Shown here in pieces: positions 8,973 through 63,802 of a stretch of 64,000 nt of DNA. This DNA comes from Gracilinema caldarium (GTDB lineage Bacteria; Spirochaetota; Spirochaetia; Treponematales; Breznakiellaceae). The notes below the pieces were generated by a model. That model saw only the letters and a list, made by a program, of their open reading frames with translations. It did no database searches and had not been told where the DNA came from. Position 1 is the stretch's first letter, and each line of letters opens with the position of its first letter. The position numbers and the translations under genes were made by a program. The stretch is from positions 1 to 64,000 of the forward strand of contig NZ_JAJUHW010000005.1 in the NCBI RefSeq assembly GCF_029265695.1. Direction: 5' to 3'.

Positions 8973-9050
8973 AAGGAACTCACAACCGATTTTAGAAATT
9001 GGCTCAGTATTACAAAAATTGTTCCGATATTGAAAACGGAGTATAGGTAG

Positions 9051-22646: not shown

Positions 22647-22738
22647 CTTTTATCCCTATAAATTATAATATAAAATATAGAGCAAGCGCAACCAAATTTG
22701 CAATAAAAAACTGTAAAAAACTCTAAAATATGAGATAT

Positions 22739-22888
22739 GAGCCAATTTCAAAAGTCGGTCACTTTTGAAATTGGCTTTGCGATTGCTTGCGGTTGCGCGC
22801 AGTTTCTCTAAAACTGCATGCAACCGCTACGCCAAATCGCGGATTTCAAGGTAGCTCTTTCAAAACTCTCTAAGTTTTGAAAGAGCTT
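22739..22888. repeat. Modular palindromic repeat, copy A
   Basis: This 150-bp non-coding element has three nested parts. First is a perfect 15-bp hairpin (GCCAATTTCAAAAGT at 22741-22755 with its complement at 22761-22775, 5-nt loop). Next is a central palindrome bounded by GCGATT and AATCGC that contains GGTTGC/GCAACC and CAGTTT/AAACTG arms. Last is a second perfect 15-bp hairpin (AGCTCTTTCAAAACT at 22853-22867 with 22873-22887, 5-nt loop). Both outer hairpins share the core TTTCAAAA. A close second copy occurs at 62.37 kb. It fills most of the gap between the TPR gene and rsmD. No coding capacity is seen. Confidence 0.85.
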
Positions 22889-22894
22889 TAGATA

Positions 22895-23428
22895 TTATTG
22901 TTCCATTCGATAAAAATCGACTATAGATCGCCCGTATTCTCTGCGATCTATCAATGTGAGTGTTTCAACCTGATCTGGAAAATGATCCTCCCGCGGCCGG
23001 TGAATAAGCAAAACAGAGCCCGGTTTCATCAATTTAGACCGTGCAATTGACGCAACGAGCTGCTGCTTAAAACGGTAAGGGAAGGGGGGATCGCAAAAAA
23101 TGTAATCGAATGAGTGTTTTGCCCGTTTTACAAAGAGTTCGGCGGACATAAAATGACAATTTATCCGTACCGGCGATATAGAAACATTTTTAATGAGGGT
23201 GCTTCGTTTTAAGCTGTCCATTTCCACCGCATCAATCGGATCTGCTCCGCGGCTTGCGGCCTCCAGGGCAATAATACCCGAGCCGGAAAAAATATCTAAA
23301 AAGGACTTTCCTGTTAAGTCTCCCAGAATTGCGAATACCGATTCGCGCATGCGGTCCATAGCAGGCCGTATAACCCCGTCAGGGACTTCAACTTTTCTTC
23401 CGCATAATTGACCTCCGGTTATTCTCAT
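22895..23428 (-). CDS. rsmD: 16S rRNA guanine-966 N2-methyltransferase
   Basis: RsmD uses SAM to methylate N2 of G966 in 16S rRNA during 30S assembly. The 177-residue protein has MRITGGQLCGRKVEVP at the start, the SAM-binding motif FLDIFSGSGIIALEAASRGA near residue 43, and the catalytic DPPF motif in YIFCDPPFPYRF near 115. Length is normal. CAGGAG precedes the ATG. It begins 4 bp after the flavoprotein gene and ends next to repeat copy A. Confidence 0.94.
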   Translation of the reverse strand: MRITGGQLCGRKVEVPDGVIRPAMDRMRESVFAILGDLTGKSFLDIFSGSGIIALEAASRGADPIDAVEMDSLKRSTLIKNVSISPVRINCHFMSAELFVKRAKHSFDYIFCDPPFPYRFKQQLVASIARSKLMKPGSVLLIHRPREDHFPDQVETLTLIDRREYGRSIVDFYRMEQ

Positions 23429-48576: not shown

Positions 48577-48600
48577 CATAAATTGGCCGACTTTTGAAGT
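48577..48600. repeat. Short remnant of the palindromic repeat, copy D
   Basis: AAATTGGCCGACTTTTGAA followed by GTTGG matches, on the opposite strand, the arm and loop of the first hairpin of copies A and B. It fills the 30-bp gap between the convergent rnc and cca genes. Confidence 0.5.
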
Positions 48601-48605
48601 TGGTT

Positions 48606-49958
48606 TTACTGCTTCAGTTTTTCATACAGATTTCTGGCAATGAGGGATAGTTTTTCCTTCCTGTTTTCTTCCGGATCATCCAGTACGGTTTCAAAAAGTT
48701 CTTTAAGGATTCTTCCCATAATTGGTCCCCGGGGAATTCCAAGCTGAGCGAGGTCTTCCCCATTTACCGCAAGATCCTTTATCGAAAGGGCCTTATTTTT
48801 AGCCAAGAGTGCCATAATCCTATCCCGTAAGGGCTGATTCAATGCTGCCGGAGGTTCCCGCCCCGTGGTGCCCCAGGTATCGGCCCTGCGGAGATCAAAA
48901 AGGTCATTCAGAAAAGACTCTCCGACCCGGACAACAAAACGCCGCACCGCCGCATCGGTCCACTGGTCATCGTAATGGAACATGTGGACCGCAATAAGAT
49001 GGCAGACCTGATCCATAAGAGAATTCGGATATCTGAGACGGGTCATAATATCCCGGGCAAGCTGGGCAGACACTTCTTCATGCCGGTAAAAGGTCCAAAT
49101 CCCGAGTTCATCTTTATCTCTCACCGCAGGCTTTCCAATATCATGAAACAGCGCCGCAAGCCGCACCGCCGGCTTATCTTTTGGTGCGTAATCGCAGGCG
49201 AGCAGCAGATGGTCCAGCACATCAAATTGATGAAATCCCTTTTGGTCTACGCCGCGGCAGGCTTGCAGTTCCGGAAACAACAGTGCAAGGAGCCCCGTGG
49301 TCTCCATCAATCTAAAAGCTATCGAAGGCTTTTCGGATGCTAGAATTTTGTCCACTTCGTCCCGGACCCGTTCCATGGCTACCTTTTCAGTAATGTGGAT
49401 GGTAAGCGGTATCGCCTTAAGGGTTTCGCCTTCAATAGTAAACTTTAGTTGGGCTGCAAAACGCAGGGCCCGCAGAGGCCTAAGTCCATCCTCGGAAAAT
49501 CGTTCTATGGGATTGCCGACACAGCGGATCACCCTGTCCTTTATATCCTTTTGTCCCCCAAAGGGATCTACCAGGCGTTGTTCCGGCAGTTCAAGGGCCA
49601 GTGCATTCATAGTAAAGTCCCGGCGAGACAGGTCTTCCTCGATGGAGCTGGCATAGCTTACCGTATCGGGCCGTCTGCCATCGGAATAGGAACCTTCGAT
49701 TCTAAATGTGGTGGTTTCTATGGATAGGCACTTATACAGGATTGTGACGGTACCGTGCTTTATCCCCGTAGGAATAACCCGGCGGAACATGGCTTGAACC
49801 TCTTCCGGCCGTGCATCTGTTGCCAGATCCCAGTCTTTGGCGGGCTGCCCCCGAACCAGGTCTCTGACAGCACCTCCCACTAAGTATACTTCCTTCTGAT
49901 GCTTTTTAAAAATCTCTGCCACCTCAAGCACCGAGGGGTGTATGCGGAACTTGCCCAT
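48606..49958 (-). CDS. cca: CCA tRNA nucleotidyltransferase / poly(A) polymerase family, with HD domain
   Basis: A 450-residue class II nucleotidyltransferase. The head domain has VYLVGGAVRDLVRGQPAKDWDLATDARPEEV with the catalytic D-x-D, RRDFTMNALAL, and the neck segment RFSEDGLRPLRALRFAAQLKF. An HD domain follows with LAALFHDIGKPAVRDKDELG and FYRHEEVSAQLA. CCA addition is expected to be essential here because the tRNA genes in this window do not encode CCA. A poly(A) polymerase role cannot be excluded. The start sits at a GGGCCCATATGGGC palindrome. Confidence 0.9.
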   Translation of the reverse strand: MGKFRIHPSVLEVAEIFKKHQKEVYLVGGAVRDLVRGQPAKDWDLATDARPEEVQAMFRRVIPTGIKHGTVTILYKCLSIETTTFRIEGSYSDGRRPDTVSYASSIEEDLSRRDFTMNALALELPEQRLVDPFGGQKDIKDRVIRCVGNPIERFSEDGLRPLRALRFAAQLKFTIEGETLKAIPLTIHITEKVAMERVRDEVDKILASEKPSIAFRLMETTGLLALLFPELQACRGVDQKGFHQFDVLDHLLLACDYAPKDKPAVRLAALFHDIGKPAVRDKDELGIWTFYRHEEVSAQLARDIMTRLRYPNSLMDQVCHLIAVHMFHYDDQWTDAAVRRFVVRVGESFLNDLFDLRRADTWGTTGREPPAALNQPLRDRIMALLAKNKALSIKDLAVNGEDLAQLGIPRGPIMGRILKELFETVLDDPEENRKEKLSLIARNLYEKLKQ

Positions 49959-60638: not shown

Positions 60639-62371
60639 CGGAATTGCAGCTTGACCCCGCAGTTGCGAAGCTGATCGAATACGCTAAAGAAAAAAAAAGC
60701 CTCTCCTACGATGAACTTTCCGATTTTTTACCGGAACATATCGTCAATTCCGAAAAAATCGAAGAAGTTCTGGCATTGTTAGAAGAAAACAATGTACAGC
60801 TCATCGAAGAAGAAAATCTTTCAGAAGAAGAGGAAGTCGAAGAACACAAGGAACCGGAGACGGAGAAAAAGAGGCTCGTCTATAGCGATAAAGAGTCCTC
60901 TGTTGACGATCCTATTCGCTTGTATCTTCGGGAAATTGGAAAGGAAAGCCTCCTGACCGCAGAGCAGGAAGTGGAACTTTCAAAACAGATGGAAGAAGGG
61001 GAAAATATCATTAAACGGGTAGTCAAAAAATCCGGCATGATAATTCCCGAATATTACGCTATAGCCCAGCGGGCCTTTTCAAAAAAAGATCCGCGGGAAA
61101 TGAATTTGTCTAAAAAAGAAATTACCGAATATATGGCCGAACGGCGCCGGCTCAACCAGTACTATCGGGAAACACTTAAACTTATCGGCCCTGATTTAAA
61201 ACAGTACATGGACATTAAGCGTCATATTCTGGCCCGGGGCGGTGATATTTTTGAAAACCCTGAGCTCACCGAATTACGGAGCAAAATTATGCCCGTACTT
61301 GCGGAAGCGGAAATTCACCCTGAAGAAATCAGTGGTTTTTCAGAAAAATTCGTCCAGGCCGCAAAAAAAATTAAAAAATATAGAAAAGAGCAGGAACGAA
61401 TAGAAAAACGGCTCAGGGTTGGTTCCGTAAAAGAATTGCGGTCCCTGGGACGGGGTCTTACTATTAAAGAAGAACGGGAGCGAATCGAAGAAGAACTGGG
61501 GCTTCCCTCCGATGAAATAAAAGAACTGATACGACACATACAGGTAACCGAGAAAAAGCTTCATCAATTAGAAGCCGAATTCGAAGAACCGATTGAAAAC
61601 ATTAATAAAATGGCCAAGGAAATAAACCGGGGCCGGGTTATGATGAAGAGCGCTAAGGATCGCCTCATAAAGGCCAACCTCAGGCTCGTAGTTTCTATTG
61701 CTAAAAAATATACCAACCGAGGGCTTCACTTCTTTGATCTCGTTCAAGAAGGAAATATCGGTCTTATTAAGGCGGTAGAAAAATTTGAATACCGAAAGGG
61801 ATACAAATTCTCAACCTATGCAACCTGGTGGATCCGGCAGGCTATTACCCGATCCATTTCTGACCAGGCCCGAACTATCCGCGTTCCAGTCCATATGATC
61901 GAACAGATAAATAAGGTGGTGCGCGAATCCCGCCAGCTTATGCAGGTCCTGGGCCGTGAACCGACCGATGAAGAGATCGCAGAACGGCTTGGGTGGACAG
62001 CGCAACGGGTAAAATCGGTTAAAAATGTTGCTCGTGAACCTATATCTCTTGAAACCCCCATTGGTGAGGAAGAAGATTCACTTCTGGGAGATTTTATCGA
62101 AGACAAGGATGTGGAAAATCCAGCAAATCAAACCGCGTTTACCCTGTTGCAAGAACAGCTGCGCACCGTATTGCAAACTCTGCCTCCGCGGGAACAGGAA
62201 GTATTAAAGATGCGGTTTGGCCTCGACGATGGATATTCTCTCACTTTGGAAGAAGTGGGGTTATATTTTAATGTTACACGGGAACGAATCAGACAGATAG
62301 AAGCAAAAGCATTGCGGAGACTCCGACATCCAAAGAGAAGCCGCAGGCTAAAAGATTATCTGGACCACTGA
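60635..62371 (+). CDS. rpoD: Principal sigma factor (sigma70)
   Basis: The housekeeping sigma factor, 578 residues. Region 1.1-like helices are at 1-60, followed by a very acidic linker. Region 1.2 is [26 protein letters not shown]. Region 2 is [37 protein letters not shown] with [20 protein letters not shown]. Regions 3 and 4 end in [32 protein letters not shown]. This fits the TTGACA-17-TATAAT promoters seen in the window. Its stop codon is the first three bases of repeat copy B. Confidence 0.97.
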
Positions 62372-62501
62372 GCCAATTTCAAAAGTCGGTCATTTTTGAA
62401 ATTGGCTTTGCGATTGCTTGCGTTTGCGTTGCAACCGCGGCGCTTAATCGCAGATTTCAAGGTAGCTCTTTCAAAACTCCCTGAGTTTTGAAAGAGCTAC
62501 C
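62369..62501. repeat. Modular palindromic repeat, copy B
   Basis: The same architecture as copy A at 22.74 kb. The first hairpin has arms at 62372-62386 and 62392-62406 (one G-T pair). The central module is bounded by GCGATT and AATCGC but is about 20 bp shorter, lacking the inner CAGTTT hairpin. The second hairpin, GGTAGCTCTTTCAAAACTC with its perfect complement, has a 19-bp stem (62461-62479 with 62483-62501) and a 3-nt loop. It starts at the rpoD stop codon and ends about 20 bp before the next ATG, so it lies within the transcript. Confidence 0.85.
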
Positions 62502-62520
62502 ATTAATAGAGGGGAAAAGC

Positions 62521-63372: not shown

Positions 63373-63384
63373 TAAGTATTTTAA

Positions 63385-63802
63385 CGATGGATCCGGTTGC
63401 CGCTTATGGCTAGGCTATTGAGCTCAGCCATAAGAGGAAAGTCCGGGCTCCGTAGGGCATAATGCCGGGTAACTCCCGGGCTTAGGAAAAACGCCTGTGC
63501 ATTTTTTCTAAGACAGACAGTGCAACAGAAAGCAAACCGCTAAGCTGAAAAATCGTAAGATTTTTTAGTAAAGTAAGGGTGAAAGGGTGGGGTAAGAGCC
63601 CACCGCGCAGCTGGTAACAGTTGTGGCACGGCAAACCTCATTAGGAGCAAAGTTGAGCAGCGGAATGAAGGGCCCCTTCGCAACTCCGCGGGTAGACTGC
63701 GTTGACAGTATTGGCGACAATACTGCAAGATAGATGGCAACCTGCGGCTCCGTATTTCGGAACCGTTTGACAGAACCCGGCTTATGGATCCATCGTTTTT
63801 TT
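63385..63802 (+). ncRNA. rnpB: RNase P RNA
   Basis: The catalytic RNA of RNase P, which matures tRNA 5' ends. The ends pair as P1 (CGATGGATCC with GGATCCATCG). Universal segments are present in order: GAGGAAAGTCCGGGCTCC near 63434, ACAGAAAGCAAACCGC near 63524, AAGGGTGAAAGGGTGGGGTAAGAGCCCACCGC near 63575, and AGAACCCGGCTTAT near 63773. The length of about 411 nt and the layout indicate the bacterial A type. Seven T residues after the P1 arm can serve as terminator. Confidence 0.95.

Follow-up and report, generated by a model that had tools for sequence, protein, structure and literature searches.

Background

ERIC and Correia elements are bacterial MITEs of about 100-160 bp that are non-coding and intergenic, carry terminal inverted repeats and are thought to be moved in trans. 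REPs are not known to create target duplications. Elements of the REP/BIME type (GTAG and CGTC superfamilies) are likewise short intergenic hairpins present in many copies, and the stems of GTAG REPs are reported as 5-13 bp (PMC3733652). In the IS1182 family, ISPse1 has 16-bp inverted repeats and a 4-bp duplication (PMC3281130), and IS1272 inserts into hairpins and removes them, leaving no duplication (PMC5678879, PMC4923244).

Here, we analyzed a window of 64,000 nucleotides from Gracilinema caldarium (positions 1 to 64,000 of contig NZ_JAJUHW010000005.1; genome G000), which contains two copies of a palindromic repeat. The repeat is very probably a non-autonomous DDE-type MITE of about 108-160 bp, intergenic and flanked by a 4-bp duplication, whose transposase would come in trans from an IS1182-like insertion sequence (IS) with the same two unlike ends. 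Compared by description with ERIC and Correia elements, it has three separate hairpins with both termini palindromic, and its ends and duplication differ. It is distinguished from REP/BIME elements by its target duplications, its longer stems and the lack of a Y1 transposase in six bearing genomes. Its usual 4-bp duplication sets it apart from IS1272 and matches that of ISPse1 in length.

Structure of the two copies in the window

The sequence-only reading had placed two copies at 22739-22888 and 62369-62501; both are present, with their boundaries corrected to those in Table 1. In each copy, a central stem separates the left hairpin H1 (AGCCAATTTCAAAAGT and its complement) from the right hairpin H2 (AGCTCTTTCAAAACT and its complement). 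The two shared outer hairpins were described correctly as nearly perfect, and their stems, perfect or near-perfect, measure 14-18 bp. The central stem-loop differs in length between the copies, so the proposed modularity also holds. It can be put more sharply, as each terminal hairpin resembles a mini-element of about 39 bp, and such mini-elements are also found alone with their own 4-bp duplication. Both copies folded better than all 200 dinucleotide shuffles, as DNA (z = -13.5 and -9.2) and as RNA (z = -11.8 and -8.5), and the end motif did not occur in any of 100 shuffles of the window.

Table 1. Coordinates of the two MITE copies and their parts in the window.
Feature	Position	Strand	Remarks
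MITE copy 1	22739..22889	+	~151 bp, GAGCC...GAGCTTT; CTC at the right end has become TTT by mutation; G002 carries the orthologous copy at this site (L053)
Hairpin H1, copy 1	22739..22777	+	5' arm is the left terminal inverted repeat
Central long stem-loop, copy 1	22778..22841	+	64 bases
Hairpin H2, copy 1	22853..22887	+	3' arm is the right terminal inverted repeat
Left flanking repeat AGATAT, copy 1	22733..22738	.	Identical to 22890-22895; 6 bp against the family's usual 4 bp
Right flanking repeat AGATAT, copy 1	22890..22895	.	Read directly from the sequence
MITE copy 2	62370..62500	+	131 bp, GAGCC...GAGCTAC; central module shorter; orthologous copy in G002 (L059)
Hairpin H1, copy 2	62370..62408	+	
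Central stem-loop, copy 2	62409..62452	+	44 bases
Hairpin H2, copy 2	62462..62500	+	
Left target duplication CACT, copy 2	62366..62369	.	T plus the element's first GA gives the TGA stop of the sigma-factor gene
Right target duplication CATT, copy 2	62501..62504	.	3/4 match to the left; AA then follows

The duplication length of copy 1 is uncertain because its flanking repeat is 6 bp long. Copy 2 abuts the primary sigma-factor gene and takes part in its stop codon (Table 1); the junction suggests that the older stop of this gene was TAA (CAY-TAA) after the same last residue, which would leave the protein end unchanged. The genes examined beside the copies encode this sigma factor, a zinc-ribbon protein and a Cons_hypoth95 (RsmD-like) methyltransferase, and none of them is a transposase, as previously observed.

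Two further traces lie in the window. A lone left end, GAGCCAATTTCTAAAATCGG, is found between two genes at 8986-9005 (-) without a partner hairpin and is probably a truncated relic of the MITE family; a lone degenerate arm, AAACCAACTTCAAAAGTCGG, at 48587-48606 (-) is likely another relic. Rfam matches within the window were limited to RNase P RNA and three tRNAs, the RNase P RNA (class A) being located at 63384-63800 (+), downstream of copy 2.

Ends, target-site duplications and shortened forms

Alignment of the copies and reading of their flanks showed that the element starts with GAG and ends with CTC. Its terminal inverted repeats are imperfect (left GAGCCAATTTCAAAAGTC, right GAGGCTCTTTCAAAACTC), as befits a MITE. 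A search for target-site duplications, which had been proposed as a check, revealed a 4-bp direct repeat in one register only, exact in 42 of 83 copies (shuffle mean 1.7, max 8). After removal of repeated flanks, the duplication was exact in 40 of 81 copies against a shuffled mean of about 1.7, and at least 3 of its 4 bases matched in 61 of 81, against a shuffled mean of 11.3 and a maximum of 22. The duplications lean to AATT, and about half of the copies have no exact duplication.

At eight loci, hairpins of 36-40 bp stand alone, each with an exact 4-bp duplication of its own. One orthologous site carries the full element in G002 (L062) and a 39-bp hairpin in G000 (L029); the ACCT duplication is the same in both, and the flanks are identical at 292 of 299 bases. 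In the 39-bp form, the left arm of H1 is joined to H2 across a TTTCAAAA repeat, which is consistent with a deletion across direct repeats if, as we infer, the full form is the older one. Empty sites in relatives had also been proposed as a check. The element at L009 in G000 is absent at the matching place in G002 (L063), although a few bases differ at the junction, which is not clean base for base.

Distribution and genomic context

The genome of origin (3.04 Mb, 88 contigs) contains at least 12 near-full-length copies, defined as covering 125 or more of the 150 query bases, plus many fragments; many of its 89 matches at E<=10 are lone hairpins or self-reverse matches. The family is thus not confined to the two copies in the window. 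Neither is it an annotated RNA family, since an Rfam search of the element, relaxed E included, matched no family. Among the 59 genomes searched (the own genome included), 14 showed element matches, and these belong to families f1, f4 and f5. The complete genome G001, from the same genus as the window genome, gave no element match, and the end matches seen there were dismissed as chance. Plasmid and phage records searched for the element gave no match. The hairpin pattern TTTCAAAAN{3,14}TTTTGAAA occurs 19-77 times in seven element-rich genomes, 7 times in G056 and 9 times in G058, and its backward control was found in none of them.

Genome G222, of family f3, has the same three-hairpin layout with other stem sequences and with duplications TAAT, CGGA and AACC. 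Four families of the order therefore share the layout, and their differing stem sequences are kept paired by compensatory changes. About ten copies of this variant, with ends GAGCCAGTTGCAAAAGTC and GAGGCAGTTTCAAAAGTC, were observed in G222 (L450-L455). In other genera of the order, GAGGCTGTTTCAAAA-type palindromes of 36-37 bp with 4-bp duplications were noted (L431:1493-1529, L449:1501-1536), and ends related to these palindromes occur in 50 of 394 genomes.

The element is short, non-coding, multi-copy and dispersed, as expected of a MITE. Among the 75 copies with enough flank, counted against ORFs of at least 80 aa, neighboring genes were in tandem in either direction for 42 (22 and 20), divergent for 18 and convergent for 14, and 1 copy lay inside an ORF. 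This lack of gene-orientation bias does not support a common regulatory role.

A candidate IS1182-like mobiliser

PF01609 is uninformative alone, and the ends of each IS copy had to be compared. In G046, a DUF772/DDE_Tnp_1 transposase is flanked by GAGCCTCTTTCAAAAC and AAGCCTCTTTCAAAAC ends lying 1366 bp apart, and its homologue in G020 has GAGGCTCTTTCAAAA-like ends. The best NCBIfam match of the G046-type transposase is IS1182, but with 83.7 bits it falls below the curated model cut-off of 270, so we use the label IS1182-like only. Plasmid homologues with 32-35% identity are annotated as IS1182, and homologues were found in 37 of 394 genomes of the order.

A candidate partner IS with the same ends was found in another genome, G106, which belongs to the same genus as the MITE-bearing G058. 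This copy (L494/L523), 1322 bp long, has the two unlike ends of the MITE and is flanked by an ATAT duplication. Its left end, GAGCCAATTTCAAAAGTC, agrees with the MITE left end at 18/18 bases, and its right end, GAGGCTCTTGCAAAAGTC, agrees at 16/18 with the MITE right-end consensus GAGGCTCTTTCAAAACTC and at 17/18 with the G058/G042 form ending in GTC. It is the sole IS with both near-exact MITE ends, and stop codons interrupt its gene. In homologous IS copies, the ends are of the GAG...CAAA type; 4-bp duplications (TCAA, TTAA, TCTA) flank some of these copies, and several are without duplication. The IS copies themselves have no terminal hairpins, indicating that the hairpins are not needed by the insertion sequences.

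Homologues of this transposase were not found in G000, G001, G002, G003 and G025, and none is listed for G042, G052 and G056. Due to its absence from element-bearing genomes among these, the link between mobiliser and MITE rests on the ends and the duplication length, not on co-residence. For G000, G002 and G003, mobilisation would have been past, imported or performed by a copy missing from the assembly. A search for the end pair in named genomic loci and viral contigs gave no autonomous copy, and a transposase search of the viral contigs gave no hit. The open-access papers searched report no MITE that has hairpin ends and is linked to IS1182 (subscription papers and ISfinder lay outside the search), and the end sequences were not found in the paper text searched. 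Judging from the ends and duplications, an IS1182-like DDE insertion sequence supplied in trans is the likely mobiliser.

Several other candidates were rejected. PF01610 (ISL3) and PF13340 (DUF4096) were tested as mobilisers and do not fit, and L238, which resembled an IS end, proved to be a MITE end, truncated and next to an HD-domain-like gene. An ISAzo13-type element with near-perfect inverted repeats GGCATCGCGTCATAATAACTTGAC was observed in G020 (L292:1111-2423).

A scan of named genomes revealed a different MITE with the exact left end GAGCCAATTTCAAAAGTC in Desulfobacteraceae-type MAGs, which belong to another phylum (L173-L291, e.g. L173:2250). It is 120-166 bp long, with lengths clustering at 122, 143 and 166 bp, has inverted repeats at both ends and shows an exact 4-bp duplication in 51 of 62 copies. 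It shares the left end and the duplication length with the spirochaete MITE, but its ends are not hairpins and its center is a dRS3-like CCGGCGAAAGCCGG-type palindrome. Therefore, these ends are widely used, and the hairpins characterise the spirochaete element.

Hairpin conservation and alternative explanations

In 29 diverse copies, the terminal hairpins are 95.5% paired, and 14 of the 31 pairs within them show changes on both sides. The compensatory changes in both hairpins were not reached in any of 500 shuffles, which ignore the kinship of the sequences, and the covariation signal was gone when the pairing partners were slid by one to three bases. The center forms a hairpin in almost every copy, with its sequence entirely exchanged between lineages. 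It is thus the three-hairpin structure, not the sequence, that is conserved.

These compensatory changes, together with the stable three-hairpin RNA fold, could point to a structured RNA (a regulatory 3'/5' element or a terminator) instead of a mobile element. However, Rfam gave no match, gene orientation shows no preference, H1 and H2 have no T-run terminator and the target duplications show mobility, which makes this explanation improbable, although the element may have been co-opted secondarily as RNA at single sites. The sequence-only reading had proposed a MITE or REP-like family mobilised in trans. The MITE part is supported by the terminal repeats, 4-bp duplications, dispersal, the element-free site in a relative and the lack of a matching transposase in the genome. 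The REP part, in which a Y1 (TnpA-REP/RAYT) transposase would move REP/BIME-like palindromes in single-stranded form, accords with the hairpin shape, the intergenic dispersal and the GTAG motif that many H2 hairpins have at their inner foot, but is contradicted by the target duplications and by stems longer than those of GTAG REPs (PMC3733652). Moreover, the TnpA-REP relative that it called for was not detected, PF01797 being absent from six element-bearing genomes (G000, G002, G003, G042, G046 and G052), and we regard this part as highly improbable. An ISAzo13-type mobiliser has the slimmest chance of all: PF07592 is present in the element-bearing G020, G046, G060 and G061, but its inverted repeats (CGCGTCATAATAACTTGAC and CGCGCATTATTAACTTGA, in G020 and G046) do not resemble the ends of the MITE, which refutes it for the copies examined, and the type is absent from most element-bearing genomes.

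The remaining alternative accepts the same mobile element and competes only with a functional reading of its hairpins. Through template switching during replication, one hairpin arm can be copied onto the other, and such neutral palindrome correction in DNA could also yield covariation, which is therefore not proof of function. That the hairpins were kept in this way, with no role in transposition, is a real possibility, if somewhat short of an even one. The hairpins are near-perfect DNA palindromes, and both the IS copies and the Desulfobacteraceae MITE have the same ends without terminal hairpins; nevertheless, correction alone poorly explains a three-hairpin layout across four families with a fully exchanged central sequence. 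Since IS1272 targets hairpins, the terminal hairpins might instead be a substrate: an IS1182-type transposase would act on extruded hairpins, selection would act on the MITEs as landing pads or structure-based ends, and the minimal mobile units would be the hairpins of 39 bp. This specific scheme, drawn by analogy, is rather unlikely; a structural role of the hairpins in general is plausible but unproven.

Proposed mechanism and implications

In the MITE that we propose, each end is a hairpin in which a terminal inverted repeat (GAGCCAATTTCAAAAGTC or GAGGCTCTTTCAAAACTC) is backed by its inverted copy, with a variable third hairpin occupying the middle. Insertion between genes would proceed via a 4-bp staggered cut leaning to AATT-like targets. 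The transposase would have been given in trans by an IS1182-like IS with the same unlike ends, which may since have been lost from, or be missing in, the window genome. The MITE family described here occurs in four families of a single spirochaete order and has a candidate mobiliser among insertion sequences of the IS1182 kind. The full element, the 39-bp hairpin and the element-free site offer a natural series for testing the role of hairpins in DDE transposition.
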